A DNA stretch of 37,307 nt from a virus, in the IMG/VR virus record IMGVR_UViG_3300036846_000020, positions 1 through 37,307 of that record. The stretch is one strand, 5' to 3'. A program made the translations under genes and the position numbers. Under the pieces are notes generated by a model. It was not told the origin of the DNA and made no database searches. It saw nothing but the letters and a program-made list of their open reading frames with translations. Positions 1-37,307 of this stretch are shown piece after piece (the stretch's first letter is position 1; each line of letters opens with the position of its first letter).

Positions 1-139
1 GTGGGACGACGAACGACTCGCCGCGCTGCTGACCGGCTTCGATCACGACTACGCGGGCACTGGCTTCACCGAGCACGAACTGCAGATGCTGCTCGCGGGC
101 GACGGCGACCCCGCAGCGCTCGCGCTCGAACCGCAGCAA
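1..139. repeat. Terminal direct repeat, left copy (circular overlap)
   Basis: Positions 1-139 match 37169-37307 base for base except at position 13 (A here, G at 37181), a synonymous change in a Glu codon. The ParB-like reading frame runs through both copies in the same register. The simplest reading is assembly overlap of a circular or circularly permuted genome of about 37,168 bp. A genuine short terminal repeat is possible but less likely, because the repeat lies inside a gene. Confidence 0.95.
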
Positions 140-238
140 CTGTCGATCATCGTCGAGTGCGACGACGAGCAGCAGCAGCACGATCTGCTCGACGCGTTCG
201 CTGCTGAGGGTCTGCGCGTTCGACCGCTGATGATGTGA
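1..238 (+). CDS. ParB-like protein, C-terminal part (continues from window end)
   Basis: The frame opens at base 2 and stops with TGA at 236-238. Its first 46 codons repeat the last codons of the window, so it is the 3' end of the ParB-like gene that starts at 36864. Joined across the repeat the protein is 180 residues. This part follows the ParB/Srx-type domain and ends in about 32 residues rich in Asp, Gln and hydrophobics, possibly a small alpha/beta tail. It overlaps the next gene at TGATG, which suggests translational coupling with the ABC-GNAT protein. Confidence 0.85.
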   Translation, partial: WDDERLAALLTGFDHDYAGTGFTEHELQMLLAGDGDPAALALEPQQLSIIVECDDEQQQHDLLDAFAAEGLRVRPLMM

Positions 239-1371
239 TGCACGTCGACGTCACTGTCGAGACGGACGTGAGCACGTCCGCCCGCGCTCGGCAACTCGAA
301 GCGATGTTCGACGTGCCAGCCGAGACGCATCAGCGTCAGCAGTGGGTGCTCGACGCGCCGCTCGACGAGCAGCCGTGGAACGTCGGGCTGATCGTCGGCC
401 CCAGCGGGGCAGGGAAGACGATCGTGCTGCGCACGATGTTCGGCGACGAGCGCTCGCTGACGTGGGATGCTCCGAGCGTCGTCGACGCGTTCGACGAGTC
501 GCTGTCGATGCAAGACGTCAGCAGCGTCTGCATGGCAGTCGGGTTCAACACCATCCCCGCGTGGCTGCGCCCGTACGACGTGCTCAGCAACGGCGAGCAG
601 TTCCGCGTGCACATGGCGCGACTGATGATCGAGGCAGCGAAGGGCTCGACGATCGTCGTCGACGAGTTCACGAGCGTCGTCGATCGACAAGTCGCTCAGA
701 TCGGTGCGCACGCTGTCTCGAAGCACATCAGACGTCTCGACGGGCGCTTCGTCGCAGCGACGTGCCATTACGACGTCATCGACTGGCTGCAGCCCGACTG
801 GATCATCGAGCCCGCGTCGCGCAAGTTCACGTGGAGGTCGGTTCAACCCCGACCCCGCATCGAGTGCGAAGTGCGACGCGTCCCGTACAGCGTCTGGCAC
901 ACGTTCGCTCCGTTTCACTATCTGACGCCCGATCTGAACCGCACAGCGCGCTGCTTCGCGCTGTTCGTCGACGATCGGCCAGCCGCGTTCGCTGGGGTGC
1001 TGAAGCGCCCGCACGCGAAGGCGCGCAACATCAGCGGCGTCAGTCGTCTCGTGACGCTCCCTGACTGGCAAGGGCTCGGGCTCGCATTCGTGCTCGTCGA
1101 CGCGATCGCGAGCGCGTACACCGCGACTGGTGAGCGCCTGCGCACGTATCCCGCGCACCCAGCGCTGATCCGTGGGTTCGATCGCAGCGAGAAGTGGGTG
1201 CTGCGACAGCAGCCGGGTTTCAAGTCGAGCAACAGACGCGGCGTCGTGCACGGGCCGAACGCGCAGCTCGCAGCGAAGTGGCGACACGGCTCGCGACCGT
1301 GCGCCGTCTTCGAGTACGTCGGCGATCGCATCGAGCGAGACGCCGCGCAAGCACTGATCGATGGGAAGTGA
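238..1371 (+). CDS. ABC-type ATPase fused to GNAT acetyltransferase-like domain
   Basis: A 377-residue two-domain protein (start ATG 238; ATG 235 is one codon earlier). Residues about 45-195 form a soluble ABC-class ATPase: Walker A GPSGAGKT at 54-61, signature-like LSNGE at 116-120, Walker B IVVDE at 139-143 and an H-loop-like CHYD at 176-179. No membrane segment is visible, so transport is unlikely. Residues about 210-325 look like a GNAT fold, with SRLVTLPDWQGLGLAF around 269-284 matching the acyl-CoA-binding motif A. It is coupled to the ParB-like gene upstream and lies just before the small terminase. From memory, fusions of this type occur in bacteria and prophages without a settled role. 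Mom of phage Mu shows that a GNAT-related fold can modify DNA bases, so base modification is one guess and protein acetylation another. The domain calls are firm and the function is not. Confidence 0.8.
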   Translation: MHVDVTVETDVSTSARARQLEAMFDVPAETHQRQQWVLDAPLDEQPWNVGLIVGPSGAGKTIVLRTMFGDERSLTWDAPSVVDAFDESLSMQDVSSVCMAVGFNTIPAWLRPYDVLSNGEQFRVHMARLMIEAAKGSTIVVDEFTSVVDRQVAQIGAHAVSKHIRRLDGRFVAATCHYDVIDWLQPDWIIEPASRKFTWRSVQPRPRIECEVRRVPYSVWHTFAPFHYLTPDLNRTARCFALFVDDRPAAFAGVLKRPHAKARNISGVSRLVTLPDWQGLGLAFVLVDAIASAYTATGERLRTYPAHPALIRGFDRSEKWVLRQQPGFKSSNRRGVVHGPNAQLAAKWRHGSRPCAVFEYVGDRIERDAAQALIDGK

Positions 1372-1375
1372 CGCG

Positions 1376-1837
1376 ATGGGCACCAAGCAGGGCGGGCGAC
1401 GTCCCCGACCGACGCGACTGCGGCTGCTCGACGGCGCGCGCCCGTCGAAGACGAACCAGCACGAGCCCGTGCCGCGACCCGGCGTGCTCGAAGCGCCCGA
1501 GTCCATGAGCGACGACGTGCGCTTCATCTGGGACTTCACCGTCGCGCAACTCGTGCACATGGGCATCGATGCGCCGTCTGATCGTGACGCGCTCGTCGCG
1601 TACTGCGAAGCAGTCGACAAGCATCGCAAGGCGTCGATCTTGCTCGCGCGCAGCCCGCTGATGATCGTCGGCCAGAAGGGCAACCTCGTGCGCAACCCGG
1701 CGCTGATGGTGCAGCGCGACGCGGCGCATCTGATCAGGCAGTTCGCGCAAGAGTTCGGGCTGACCCCGAGCGCTCGCACGCGCATCGACGCAGAGCGACA
1801 GAACACGCATGACGTCGACAACCCGTTCGCACTCTGA
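1376..1837 (+). CDS. terS: Terminase small subunit
   Basis: A 153-residue basic protein just upstream of the large terminase. A Lys/Arg/Gly-rich N-terminus is followed by a helical region resembling P27-type small terminases: a conserved aspartate-alanine-Tyr segment, then a stretch with GQKGN and NPAL, which in this family precedes the C-terminal helices. It would recognise the packaging site and load the large subunit. ATG 1376 is preferred because GGGAAG lies about seven bases upstream; an in-frame ATG at 1361 would overlap the ABC-GNAT gene by 11 bases. The end overlaps the large terminase by 29 bases. Confidence 0.87.
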   Translation: MGTKQGGRRPRPTRLRLLDGARPSKTNQHEPVPRPGVLEAPESMSDDVRFIWDFTVAQLVHMGIDAPSDRDALVAYCEAVDKHRKASILLARSPLMIVGQKGNLVRNPALMVQRDAAHLIRQFAQEFGLTPSARTRIDAERQNTHDVDNPFAL

Positions 1838-3539
1838 TCTGCCAGACGCCGCGACGCTGCGACGTCTGAAGATCAGCCCAGAGATCGCGTGGTACTTGAC
1901 CGAGCGACGCATCCCGCTGCCGACGTGCCCGCCGAAGTTCAAGACGCCCGAGCCGAAGATCAAGGGCGCGAAGTTCGACGCGAAGCGCGTCGATCGCGTG
2001 CTCGCGGCGTTTCGACGTCTGCGACACACGAAAGGGCGCTGGGCGGGTCGACCGCTCGAACCCGACGCGTGGCAGATCGCGTACGTGCTCGCGCCTGTCT
2101 TCGGTTGGGTGCGCTTCGACGCTGAACTCGGGCAGTACGTGCGCATCATCAGGCAGTGCTACGTCGAAGTGCCACGACGCAACGGGAAGACGACGCTGTG
2201 CGGCGGCATCGGCATCTATCTCGCATGTGCTGACGGCGAGCAGGGCGCAGAGGTCGTCGCAGCAGCGACGACGACGAAGCAGGCGCGCTACGTCTTCGAC
2301 CCGGTGCGTCAGCTCGCAGCGAAGTCTCCCGATCTGAGCCCGCACGTGAAGTCGTACGCGTCGCGCATCGTGCACGAAGCGAGCGGGTCGTACATGGAAG
2401 TCGTCAGCAGCGTCGCCGAGGCGCTGCACGGCGGGAACCTGCACGGCGGCATCATCGACGAACTGCACGCGCACAAGACGCCCGATCTGGTCGAGACGAT
2501 CGAGACGGGCACCGGCTCTCGCTCGCAGCCGCTGATCGTCATGATCACGACAGCAGACGACGGTCGCACCGACACGATCTATGCCAGGAAACGCGAGTAC
2601 GTCGAGCGACTGTCGCAGCACATCTTCCGAGACGCGTCGACGTACGGCGTCATCTGGTGCGCGAGCGAGCACGACGACCCGTTCGTCGAGCAGACGTGGC
2701 AGATCGCGAACCCTGGCTACGGCACATCGCCGACGAAGCAGTATCTGATCGACGCGGCGAACCAAGCAGAGAACAGCCCGAACGAACTCGCGACGTTTCT
2801 GCGCCTGCATCTGGGCGTGCGCACACGACAGCAGACGCGCTTCGTCCCGCTCGCGACGTGGGATCGCAACGCCGGTTTCGTCGACGAGACGCGACTGCGC
2901 GGGCGCACGGCGTACGGCGGCATCGACCTCGCGTCGACGAGCGACCTCTGCTCGCTGTGCTGGCTGCTCCCCGATGACGACGGCGGCTTCGATGTTCTCT
3001 GGCGGCATTGGGCACCCGAGCGGGCGTACGACGCGCTCGTGCGTCGCACTGCACGAGCCGCTGAAGTGTGGCGACGCGAGGGCGTGCTGAGCGTGACTGA
3101 CGGCGACGTCGCTGACTACGGCTGGATACGCGCTGCGATCAACGCCGATCGCGAGCGCTTCGACGTCTCGCTGATCGGGTTCGACCCGTGGAACAGCAGT
3201 CAACTCGTGACCGATCTAGGCGACGACGGGCTCGAGCTGGTGCAAGTGCGCCAGGGGTTCGGCTCGATGTCAGCGCCGCTGAAGCAGATCAGTCACGTGC
3301 TCGCAGAAGGGCGCGAGAGCGCGCCGCGATTCCGACATGGAGGGAACCCGCTGATGCGTTGGCAGACGGACAACCTCGCCGTCGCGACTGACCCTGCCGG
3401 GAACGTCAAGCCCGACAAGAGCAAGAGCGGCGACAAGATCGACGGCTGGTCAGCAGCCGTCACGGCGATGTCGGCGTACATGGCTGCGACGAAGACAGCG
3501 AGCGCGTACGACGACGGGCACGGCGTGGTGATCATCTGA
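1809..3539 (+). CDS. terL: Terminase large subunit (ATPase and nuclease)
   Basis: A 576-residue packaging motor of the HK97/P27-associated type. The N-terminal ATPase has Walker A VPRRNGKTT at 121-129, Walker B GGIIDE ending at Asp217-Glu218, and a coupling segment ITTAD near 246-250. The C-terminal RNase H-like nuclease shows the three expected acidic sites: Asp373 in GIDLAS, Asp459 in GFDPWN and Asp545 in KIDGW. Length is normal. It would drive ATP-dependent filling of the prohead through the portal and cut the DNA. The start overlaps the small subunit gene, and its TGA overlaps the portal ATG at TGATG. Confidence 0.97.
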   Translation: MTSTTRSHSDLPDAATLRRLKISPEIAWYLTERRIPLPTCPPKFKTPEPKIKGAKFDAKRVDRVLAAFRRLRHTKGRWAGRPLEPDAWQIAYVLAPVFGWVRFDAELGQYVRIIRQCYVEVPRRNGKTTLCGGIGIYLACADGEQGAEVVAAATTTKQARYVFDPVRQLAAKSPDLSPHVKSYASRIVHEASGSYMEVVSSVAEALHGGNLHGGIIDELHAHKTPDLVETIETGTGSRSQPLIVMITTADDGRTDTIYARKREYVERLSQHIFRDASTYGVIWCASEHDDPFVEQTWQIANPGYGTSPTKQYLIDAANQAENSPNELATFLRLHLGVRTRQQTRFVPLATWDRNAGFVDETRLRGRTAYGGIDLASTSDLCSLCWLLPDDDGGFDVLWRHWAPERAYDALVRRTARAAEVWRREGVLSVTDGDVADYGWIRAAINADRERFDVSLIGFDPWNSSQLVTDLGDDGLELVQVRQGFGSMSAPLKQISHVLAEGRESAPRFRHGGNPLMRWQTDNLAVATDPAGNVKPDKSKSGDKIDGWSAAVTAMSAYMAATKTASAYDDGHGVVII

Positions 3540-30307: not shown

Positions 30308-30653
30308 AGATCAGGCACTGCCGGGGATGCCCGTGCCCGCTGAGCCACGCGAGCCGCCGTACGACGAACTGAGCCAGCTCGCGATCCAGTTGCGATGCGA
30401 GCACTGCAAGGCGATCACGGGCCAGTGGTGCAAGACGCGCAGCGGGCACTACGCGGGGCATCTGCACGCCGCGCGAATGCTCGTCGTGCAGTCGATCTTC
30501 TGGCTCGGCTTCGAGCACGGGCACGTCGCGGGCGTCGAGCAGCGCGTGCTTCGCGAGGCCGACGAGCGGACGTGCGAGAACTGTGGGAACGACGACGCGT
30601 CGTACGTCGTCTGCAGCGACTGCATGGTGAGCATCCCCGAGGCGGCGTCATGA
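30294..30653 (+). CDS. Zinc-finger protein, relative of the preceding gene
   Basis: A 119-residue protein (ATG 30294; an in-frame TTG lies one codon before). Residues about 34-60 (CEHCKAITGQWC, then a His-rich HLHAAR) repeat the C-x2-C-x6-C plus His-Ala-Arg pattern of the upstream protein. The C-terminus has two further Cys pairs (CENC and CSDC). The middle helix WLGFEHGHVAG is unusual. Probably nucleic-acid-binding. Ends in an ATGA overlap with the methyltransferase. Confidence 0.7.
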   Translation: MTPTEDQALPGMPVPAEPREPPYDELSQLAIQLRCEHCKAITGQWCKTRSGHYAGHLHAARMLVVQSIFWLGFEHGHVAGVEQRVLREADERTCENCGNDDASYVVCSDCMVSIPEAAS

Positions 30654-31372
30654 GGCTGCTCGATCTGTACTGCGGCGAGGGCGGCGCAGCAGTCGGCTAC
30701 GCCCGAGCGGGCTTCACGGTCACGGGCGTCGACCATCGACGCACAGCGGGGCGGTACTTCCCGTTCACGTTCATCGCTGACGACGCGATCGAGTACGCGA
30801 AGCAGTACGCGCACGAGTACGACGTGATCCATGCGAGCCCGCCGTGCCAGCGACACACGCAAGGGCTGACAGCGACGAAGAGCAGCAACGGCGACGGCGT
30901 GCGCGCAGTGCGTCGAGCAGCGCCGTCCCAGATCGCGGCGATCCGTGACGTGCTGATCGCGTCGGGCAAGCCGTACGTGATCGAGAACGTGCCGCGTGCG
31001 CCGCTGTACGACCCGATCGTGCTGTGCGGCACGATGTTCGGTCTGTCGACGTACGACGACGACGACACGCTGCTGCTGCTGCAGCGTCATCGTCTCTTCG
31101 AGTCGAACGTCGTGCTGTTCTCGCCGAGCGAGTGCCGTCACCCAGCGGGCGCGCAGTGGGCAGGCGTGTACGACGGTGCTCGTCACGACAAGGACGCTGC
31201 GCGCTTCGAGCGACGCGGCGGCTACGTCCCGAGCAGAGCGAAGCAGTTCGAACTGATGGGCATCGACTGGCACATGACGACGCAGGGTCTGTTCCAGGCG
31301 ATCCCACCCGACTACACGATGCACGTCGGCTCGCTGCTGATGCAGTACGTGCTGCGCGAACTGAGCGACTGA
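30650..31372 (+). CDS. DNA cytosine-C5 methyltransferase
   Basis: A 240-residue C5 methyltransferase. Motif I LDLYCGEGGAAVGY (SAM binding) at 4-17, motif IV SPPCQ with catalytic Cys66, motif VI IENVP at 111-115 and the QRHRLFE motif VIII are all present. It is short for the class, with a small target-recognition region, as in other phage versions. It would methylate cytosines in a sequence not predictable from here, probably to protect phage DNA from host restriction. No restriction endonuclease gene is adjacent. Its stop overlaps the next ATG at TGATG. Confidence 0.93.
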   Translation: MRLLDLYCGEGGAAVGYARAGFTVTGVDHRRTAGRYFPFTFIADDAIEYAKQYAHEYDVIHASPPCQRHTQGLTATKSSNGDGVRAVRRAAPSQIAAIRDVLIASGKPYVIENVPRAPLYDPIVLCGTMFGLSTYDDDDTLLLLQRHRLFESNVVLFSPSECRHPAGAQWAGVYDGARHDKDAARFERRGGYVPSRAKQFELMGIDWHMTTQGLFQAIPPDYTMHVGSLLMQYVLRELSD

Positions 31373-36272: not shown

Positions 36273-36410
36273 ATGTGCCCGTGCGGCTGTCACACTGATC
36301 TGCAGGCGATCACTGCTGCGCTCGACCCGAGACGACGCTGCAGCAGGCGTCGTCTTCGAGGCCCGTTGCCGGTTGAGTTCCTATCTCCTCCCCAACGGGC
36401 TTCGTCATGA
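36273..36410 (+). CDS. Possible 45-residue Cys-rich peptide
   Basis: ATG 36273 to TGA 36410, ending in an ATGA overlap with the HNH gene. It starts MCPCGCH and ends in an Arg-rich region. The overlap favours translation. However, two strong hairpins fall inside this frame, so the region may instead be a non-coding leader. Confidence 0.35.
   Translation: MCPCGCHTDLQAITAALDPRRRCSRRRLRGPLPVEFLSPPQRASS
36330..36355 (+). terminator. Hairpin before the HNH gene
   Basis: AGACGACGC (36330-36338) pairs with 36347-36355 over an 8-base loop, followed by TCGAGG. It follows the zinc/MerR-like gene and could be a terminator or processing site. No T-run is present. Confidence 0.5.
36357..36404. promoter_or_regulatory. 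Stem-loop that carries an orphan GAGATAGGAACTC motif
   Basis: CGAGGCCCGTTG (36357-36368) pairs with 36393-36404 with one G-T pair. The 24-base loop holds the exact minus-strand 13-mer GAGATAGGAACTC (36375-36387) that also lies before the gene at 33473. No start codon follows it within a usable distance on the minus strand. Confidence 0.55.
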
Positions 36411-36742
36411 GCCCGAGCCGACCGGGCCGCATCTGCCCGCGCTGTCACGCCGTGATCACGGCGCGCTCGTGCCCGTCGTGCTACCCCGCATGGTCGACGA
36501 GCAGCCGTCGAGGCTCGACGCGAGCATGGCGCACGCTGCGGGTCTACGTCTTCGCTGAACAGTCGGGCATCTGCGCCGTCGAGGGCTGCACCGAGCTGGC
36601 GGATGAACTCGACCACATCGTGAGCACGGCACGCGGCGGCGGCGACGAGCGGTCGAACGTCTGGGGCCTGTGCGAGACACATCACGCCGAGAAGACGGCG
36701 CACGAGTCGCGCGGCAGCCTCCCGACATGGATGACGGGGTAG
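36407..36742 (+). CDS. HNH endonuclease
   Basis: A 111-residue HNH nuclease. The core has ICAVEGCTE, then LDHIVSTARGG with the catalytic His, Asn in DERSNVWGLC and a closing HH in CETHH. Extra C-x2-C pairs at the N-terminus (CPRC and CPSC) likely bind zinc. HNH genes beside terminases are found in HK97-type phages, where they assist cos-DNA cleavage. Here the gene precedes ParB, ABC-GNAT and terminase across the join, so a packaging role is likely. Confidence 0.9.
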   Translation: MSPSRPGRICPRCHAVITARSCPSCYPAWSTSSRRGSTRAWRTLRVYVFAEQSGICAVEGCTELADELDHIVSTARGGGDERSNVWGLCETHHAEKTAHESRGSLPTWMTG

Positions 36743-36863: not shown

Positions 36864-37307
36864 ATGCACGCACCCATCCCGACGATCGAGCAGACGTACG
36901 CGATCGAGCCTGTCGAGTCGCTGACGACCCACCCCGACAACCCGCGCAAGGGCGACGTCGACATGATCGGCAAGTCGATCGAGGCGAACGGCTTCTATGG
37001 CAGCGTGATCGCGCAGACGTCGACGCGTCACGTGCTCGCAGGCAACCATCGACTGATCGCTGCTCGTGCTCGCGGCGTCGAGCATCTGCCCGTCATCTGG
37101 GTCGACGTCGACGACGATCGCGCACGCCGCATCCTCGCCGTCGACAACCGCGCGAGCGACGCCGCCGAGTGGGACGACGAGCGACTCGCCGCGCTGCTGA
37201 CCGGCTTCGATCACGACTACGCGGGCACTGGCTTCACCGAGCACGAACTGCAGATGCTGCTCGCGGGCGACGGCGACCCCGCAGCGCTCGCGCTCGAACC
37301 GCAGCAA
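36864..37307 (+). CDS. ParB-like nuclease/CTPase-fold protein (N-terminal part)
   Basis: Runs off the window and is completed at bases 140-238, 180 residues in all. The N-terminal 100 residues show the ParB/Srx order: a strand IEPVESLTTHPDNPRKGD, a helix, a strand VIAQ, then GNHRL (60-64) and LAVDNRAS (91-98). That matches ParB N-terminal domain proteins of phages, which are usually nucleases or DNA-binding subunits and not partition proteins; no ParA is nearby. It overlaps the ABC-GNAT gene, suggesting a two-gene unit. Its role in packaging, modification or nicking cannot be told from sequence. Confidence 0.85.
   Translation, partial: MHAPIPTIEQTYAIEPVESLTTHPDNPRKGDVDMIGKSIEANGFYGSVIAQTSTRHVLAGNHRLIAARARGVEHLPVIWVDVDDDRARRILAVDNRASDAAEWDDERLAALLTGFDHDYAGTGFTEHELQMLLAGDGDPAALALEPQQ
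37169..37307. repeat. Terminal direct repeat, right copy
   Basis: Identical to 1-139 apart from G at 37181. See the left copy. Removing one copy gives a single uninterrupted ParB-like gene. Confidence 0.95.

Follow-up and report, generated by a model that had tools for sequence, protein, structure and literature searches.

Beside the terminase genes of a temperate phage lie a parB-like gene and, overlapping its end, a gene encoding an ABC ATPase fused to a GNAT domain, which raises the question of what these two proteins do together and on what substrate they act. The stretch of DNA analysed, hereafter the window, is an entire IMG/VR virus record of 37,307 bases. Judging from sequence comparisons, it is fairly probable that the two genes form a cassette by which the phage modifies its own DNA, and in which ABC-GNAT would most likely be a DNA nucleobase acyltransferase delivered by the ParB-like protein via a short C-terminal tail.

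The prediction for ABC-coupled GNATs is reportedly due to Iyer, Zhang, Burroughs and Aravind (2013, NAR gkt573). The text on these proteins in PMC7824862, with Tenacibaculum phage pT24 as the exemplar, predicts that GNATs coupled with ABC ATPases make an uncharacterised acyl modification of a DNA base. The initial annotation's remark that it knew of no assigned function for the pair is thus not entirely correct; phrog_11143, the family itself, is unannotated. By sequence, the window protein belongs to this ABC-GNAT family of Iyer et al. 2013/2021 (phrog_11143); the pT24 homologue (34%, 8e-54 by tblastn) has the same domain pair and predicted function. That text is silent on a ParB partner, on a tail specific to the effector, on tails encoded as separate ORFs and on exchange at the locus. 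Our literature search, which covered few subscription papers, found no account of the tail, of its specificity for the enzyme or of exchange at the locus, and no text linking a window-type ParB to Mom, DpdA or ABC-GNAT. What is new here is thus the co-occurrence of ParB and tail with the enzyme, the specificity of the tail, the stand-alone tail mini-ORFs and the locus exchange, the acylation prediction having already been published.

Gene layout and the two proteins

The ends of the window (1-139 versus 37169-37307) share a 139-bp overlap, of which 138 positions are identical, the sole mismatch (A/G, 13 versus 37181) giving a synonymous GAA/GAG codon. By this overlap the record is circular or permuted, or carries an end repeat, and it is probably a whole genome of ~37.17 kb in circular or permuted form; the join of parB across the window ends is consequently genuine. 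The overlap and the translation confirm the gene as initially annotated (36864 across the join to 238), which runs from an ATG at 36864 to a TGA at 236-238 and gives a product of 180 aa; they also confirm the TGATG at which this stop codon and the ABC-GNAT ATG (238-240) have one A in common. The reported position beside the terminase is equally correct, since the small-subunit gene starts directly downstream of ABC-GNAT, at 1376 (Table 1). A serine-recombinase integrase gene lies elsewhere in the window, and the phage is temperate. A small HNH endonuclease-like ORF (36407-36742) is found just 5' of parB, and Gordonia phage AnClar (L273) has an HNH gene between ParB and ABC-GNAT; such insertions may explain the gene that separates the two in several contigs. 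The window also has a methyltransferase-like ORF (30395-31372, phrog_363), possibly a second DNA-modification gene of this phage.

Table 1. Coordinates of the cassette, its motifs and the neighbouring genes in the window
Feature	Position	Strand	Basis
parB-like gene, 5' part (ParB/Srx-fold domain, GNHR motif)	36864-37307	+	translation; phrog_723 9.7e-38; homologue's fold
parB-like gene, 3' part (bases 1-139 duplicate the window's 3' end), TGA 236-238	1-238	+	
ParB C-terminal tail LSIIVECDDEQQQHDLLDAFAAEGLRVRPLMM, proposed ABC-GNAT docking element	140-235	+	tail HMM 51.0 bits, 3.6e-18
ABC ATPase-GNAT fusion, 377 aa	238-1371	+	profiles, motifs, AlphaFold2 model
ABC nucleotide-binding domain, residues 1-207	238-858	+	VIA-align Z 14.6 to 6xji_C, 173 aligned, rmsd 2.9
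Walker A GPSGAGKT	397-420	+	G54 S56 G57 G59 K60 invariant
ABC signature LSNGE	583-597	+	L116 S117 G119 invariant
Walker B DE (D142 E143)	661-666	+	invariant
H-loop H177	766-768	+	invariant
GNAT domain, residues 208-377	859-1368	+	Acetyltransf_1 1.3e-5; Z 14.0 to 1y9k_B, 13.5 to RimI 5isv_A
GNAT motif A RLVTLPDWQGLG, acyl-CoA pyrophosphate loop	1045-1080	+	R270 V272 P275 G279 G281 invariant, Q278 97%
terminase small subunit (neighbour)	1376-1837	+	Terminase_4 9.3e-21
terminase large subunit (neighbour)	1809-3539	+	TerL_nuclease 2.9e-32, TerL_ATPase 2.2e-20

ABC-GNAT matches phrog_11143 over its full length (residues 5-366, 1.8e-96), and among Pfam profiles Acetyltransf_1 passes the cutoff while ABC_tran falls slightly under it (24.9 versus 25). 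The full set of ABC ATPase motifs that had been recognised in it was borne out, the Walker A, LSxG signature, Walker B, D-loop and H-loop residues being invariant across 59 relatives, and GNAT motif A, with five positions invariant in the same relatives (Table 1), was correctly placed at about 269-284. Structure prediction and fold comparison, which had been proposed as a check, gave a confident AlphaFold2 model (pLDDT 90.3) with an ABC fold followed by a GNAT fold (residues 206-363, 131 aligned to 1y9k_B), and by motifs and modelled fold the protein is a member of both superfamilies. The acyl-CoA pocket appears intact, to judge from conservation of the acyl-CoA loop in relatives, and the model, of a soluble protein, has no apparent membrane segments, as had been stated; no permease was found among the neighbouring window genes scanned by profile. 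PADLOC returned weak partial matches only, among them MADS mad3 (4.5e-7) over ~44 residues of the ABC part. Since protein N-acetyltransferases such as RimI are among the structures that it matches, the GNAT fold does not by itself reveal the substrate.

The ParB-like protein matches Pfam ParB_N below threshold (20.2 bits versus a cutoff of 26.3) and phrog_723 as given in Table 1, and the AlphaFold2 model of a homologue has ParB CTPases as its best match (7bnk, ParB-CDP, E 5e-8); by its predicted N-domain fold and G-N-H-R motif it is a member of the ParB/Srx superfamily. Its last ~33 residues form a conserved tail with the consensus y.viV.C.dE..Q.eLLerfe.eGLkCraLis (Q 100%, E and G 94%, C 92%). 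Across aligned ParBs the commonest residue has a mean frequency of 0.56 in the tail, 0.46 in the ParB domain and 0.33 in the linker between them, and a tail profile built without the window ParB finds that protein (51 bits). The sequence pattern is strand-helix-strand, of which the helix alone is assigned in the homologue's model, where the tail is confidently ordered and preceded by a linker with pLDDT <50. The 54-aa family phrog_28816 matches the tail region of two ParB C-termini (L002 and L012); it may represent tails of the stand-alone type that have already been catalogued.

Distribution of the pair and specificity of the tail

By tblastn the ABC-GNAT fusion occurs in 63 of 50,697 phage records, the weakest matches covering the ABC part alone, and the carriers include phages of Gordonia, Leptospira, Streptococcus, Porphyromonas and Aeromonas. 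The family, phrog_11143, is widespread in phages and unannotated. In Streptococcus and Oenococcus phages ABC and GNAT are separate neighbouring genes. When viral contigs were scanned by pattern, 234 relatives were confirmed; the 80 that best match the window protein, a sample biased to near relatives, were retained. Co-occurrence, another of the proposed checks, proved to be conserved in this sample: a ParB domain lies upstream in 76 of the best 80 of 234 (of the other four, two are cut at the contig edge and two have no detectable domain), and the tail profile matches all 80 loci. A pattern scan of genome contigs yielded a single locus, because the patterns also match ordinary ABC proteins. 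On a planctomycete (Aeoliella) contig, L189 4310-8209 holds ParB-tail, ABC-GNAT, terminase and portal genes, the last two identified by eye; this is a prophage-like locus in a distant phylum with the gene order of the window.

In Komp_PAO1_1, Porphyromonas phage 007a and faecal phage L015, where no ParB is adjacent, the tail is encoded by itself in a short ORF that overlaps the gene of the enzyme, and a 41-aa stand-alone tail used as a tblastn query found 22 of the 50,697 phage records, every one an ABC-GNAT carrier. We considered whether the mini-ORFs of Komp_PAO1_1 and the Porphyromonas phages might be Com proteins of the Mu type, and rejected this; unlike Mu Com they have no zinc-finger cysteines, and they align with the ParB tail. 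One such Porphyromonas phage mini-ORF (L003 4831-4959) is annotated as an 'acr candidate' and is by sequence a stand-alone tail of the ParB type, which makes the anti-CRISPR label doubtful. Neither ParB nor tail was found beside the enzyme in P12024S, AsFcp_4, vB_VmeM-32 and Enterococcus 9184; the ParB adaptor is thus not always adjacent to ABC-GNAT.

As a control we selected 86 loci, some of them near-duplicates, by the ParB N-domain alone, using an alignment query in place of single-sequence ParB scans, which gave few loci. In about 60 of the 86, an enzyme of DNA modification can be recognised, either fused to the ParB or close to it. The loci carry fused DNA methyltransferases (21), TET/JBP-like proteins (11 adjacent, 2 within ~1 kb), DpdA-like proteins (7), TET-associated glycosyltransferases (6, two by eye), Mom (5), PAPS-reductase-like proteins (4), C5-cytosine methyltransferases (3, one by eye), QueC-like proteins (3 loci, 1 distinct) and ABC-GNAT (2, closely related to each other). 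PMC12783734 notes frequent fusion of ParBc domains with DNA methyltransferases and calls their role there unknown. Of the 86 ParBs, only the two from ABC-GNAT loci have the tail, which the remaining 84 lack (Fisher p 0.0003, a value that ignores kinship). Where the neighbour is Mom or a C5-cytosine methyltransferase, the ParB C-terminus is a zinc-ribbon-like tail with CPxCG; where it is TET/JBP, another tail (IRSVVLPFP...NSDAV) is often shared (L123, L130, L142, L163, L098; L111, L116, L127, L192). From these sequences ParB tails look effector-related in general.

In 38 matched loci, distances between ABC domains correlate with those between tails (rho 0.52, p 0.0005), a correlation part of which linkage alone could give, the tail being the parB segment closest to the ABC-GNAT gene; the corresponding value for the ParB domain is 0.17, and ParB domain and tail, though parts of one protein, are uncorrelated (0.08). 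The pattern fits a tail that functionally belongs to the ABC domain, on which, as far as sequence can indicate, it probably docks. It might be argued that the tail is a mere translational-coupling device or conserved overlap with no protein docking, as it ends within ~20 bases of the ABC-GNAT start in 66 of the best 80 of 234 loci. We regard this as unlikely, given that the tail is conserved at the level of protein, is retained on ParB when another gene intervenes before ABC-GNAT, and is predicted as an ordered unit beyond a disordered linker.

Exchange of cassettes at one locus

The main reason for reading ABC-GNAT as a DNA-modifying enzyme is its exchange, at one locus, with systems whose DNA-modifying role is established or strongly predicted. 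In the genus Sourvirus, terL DNA is 82-83% identical between Mariokart, Sour and LittleMunchkin, and the DNA of the ParB domain is 72-80% identical, aligning up to base 411-435 of 612; homology then ends inside parB ahead of the tail and returns only at terL. The slot between holds ABC-GNAT and a formyltransferase in Mariokart, DpdA, QueC/QueD/QueE and GTP cyclohydrolase in Sour, and a Tet_JBP-like oxygenase (weak match), an ADDT amino acid:DNA transferase and a P-loop nucleotide kinase in LittleMunchkin. Similarly, in Arthrobacter phages the slot after ParB is taken by ABC-GNAT in EastWest and by Mom in Shade (PF25680, 4e-61), with homologous flanking genes (66%, 55%, 80%, 45%) and differing ParB tails. 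A mom-bearing relative at the Komp_PAO1_1 locus was sought and not found, the search giving distant baseplate matches only. Such exchange is evidence of an equivalent role, not of chemistry. It supports the suggestion in the initial annotation of a base-modifying or DNA-marking cassette, ABC-GNAT having been exchanged with Mom, DpdA/Que and TET/JBP-ADDT, and tells against the view, also stated there, that acetylation of a host protein is equally open.

Mom and the DpdA/Que cassettes are among the closest known systems. Mom of phage Mu (PF25680), like ABC-GNAT, belongs to the GNAT superfamily, modifies bases and is also found after ParB, and the two occupy the same locus in Shade and EastWest; unlike Mom, the window protein has its own ABC ATPase, a different ParB tail and no match to the Pfam Mom profile at E 0.1. 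The DpdA/Que 7-deazaguanine cassettes (e.g. Ares, Sour, Typha) begin with the same ParB adaptor and fill the same pre-terminase slot, but they exchange the base with a deazaguanine precursor rather than transferring an acyl group, and their ParB tail is different.

Proposed function and competing explanations

The proposed mechanism starts from ABC-GNAT as a predicted soluble protein, in which an ABC ATPase is joined to a GNAT acyltransferase whose acyl-CoA loop, by fold and motifs, appears intact; the GNAT motif implies acyl-CoA as the donor. Locus exchange strongly suggests that the substrate is DNA, and the acyl group would pass from acyl-CoA to an exocyclic base amine, the likeliest acceptor by analogy with Mom. 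The ParB-like protein would serve as the DNA-bound adaptor, its N-domain being common to ParBs coupled with other phage DNA-modifying enzymes, and the tail would dock on the ABC domain, which would account for enzyme and tail being exchanged together while the ParB domain stays. More speculatively, ATP hydrolysis by an ABC dimer might open the duplex or reset the complex, in the manner of the ATPase/helicase module of TmcA. TmcA, the tRNA(Met) cytidine acetyltransferase, combines an ATP-hydrolysing module with a GNAT acting on a nucleobase, and makes N4-acetylcytidine in tRNA. Its likeness to ABC-GNAT would lie in the ATPase-GNAT architecture, as its ATPase is of helicase type and its substrate RNA. 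The modified DNA would resist host restriction.

Two other substrates have to be weighed. The GNAT could acetylate a host protein during takeover, e.g. RNA polymerase or a ribosomal protein, with ParB only regulating or localising it; RimI, among the fold matches, is a ribosomal-protein acetyltransferase, and phage GNATs of such a kind, e.g. Rac, are reported in PMC7824862. This is improbable, as it leaves unexplained both the one-for-one swaps with DNA-modifying cassettes and a ParB adaptor common to DNA methyltransferases, TET/JBP, DpdA and Mom. Modification of tRNA or aminoacyl-tRNA, which would protect phage translation or poison the host (cf. TmcA and GNAT toxins), draws on the resemblance to TmcA and on the annotation of DpdA relatives as tRNA-ribosyltransferases, but we hold it to be quite improbable for an enzyme tied to a DNA-binding ParB adaptor, with DNA-acting syntenic partners (Mom, TET/JBP, ADDT) and no antitoxin-like partner.

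The position of the cassette invites a further explanation, in which ParB serves either to mark cos/pac or in the partition of a plasmid-like prophage, and the ABC protein is a motor. Terminase genes are often directly downstream (window, L189, Mariokart, LE4, Pmp13), which this would explain; the cassette is, however, far from the terminase in EastWest and Komp_PAO1_1, a ParB is nearby in only one of 80 phages with a window-type TerL (L192, where a C5-cytosine methyltransferase follows it), and the window phage has an integrase. Such a packaging or partition role is very improbable.

Returning to DNA-base acylation, if it is true, an ATP-driven acyltransferase joins the known phage DNA chemistries and there is an undescribed base to look for, and a role is suggested for those ParB-like proteins that phages encode next to methyltransferases, TET/JBP, DpdA and Mom. 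The natural cassette exchange in Sourvirus makes the question testable by comparing DNA from the virions of sister phages, and the tail might become a means of directing modifying enzymes to DNA. A broader model, tentative and as a whole somewhat doubtful, is that the ParB-like proteins of phages act as interchangeable adaptors, serving many DNA-modifying enzymes of unrelated chemistry through a short C-terminal docking tail specific to each type, that ABC-GNAT is an ATP-dependent DNA-base acyltransferase producing an undescribed base, and that in the subfamily with a downstream formyltransferase it adds an amine-bearing acyl group (e.g. aminoacyl), which is then formylated.

A formyltransferase gene (PF00551) directly follows ABC-GNAT in Komp_PAO1_1, Porphyromonas 007a, Mariokart, L015, L105 and L106, and the window lacks such a gene; that the group added in this subfamily has a free amine, later formylated, is speculation. 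In Rhodococcus phage Jace (L001 6068-6493) it is an aspartate-decarboxylase-like gene (PF02261) that comes after ABC-GNAT.
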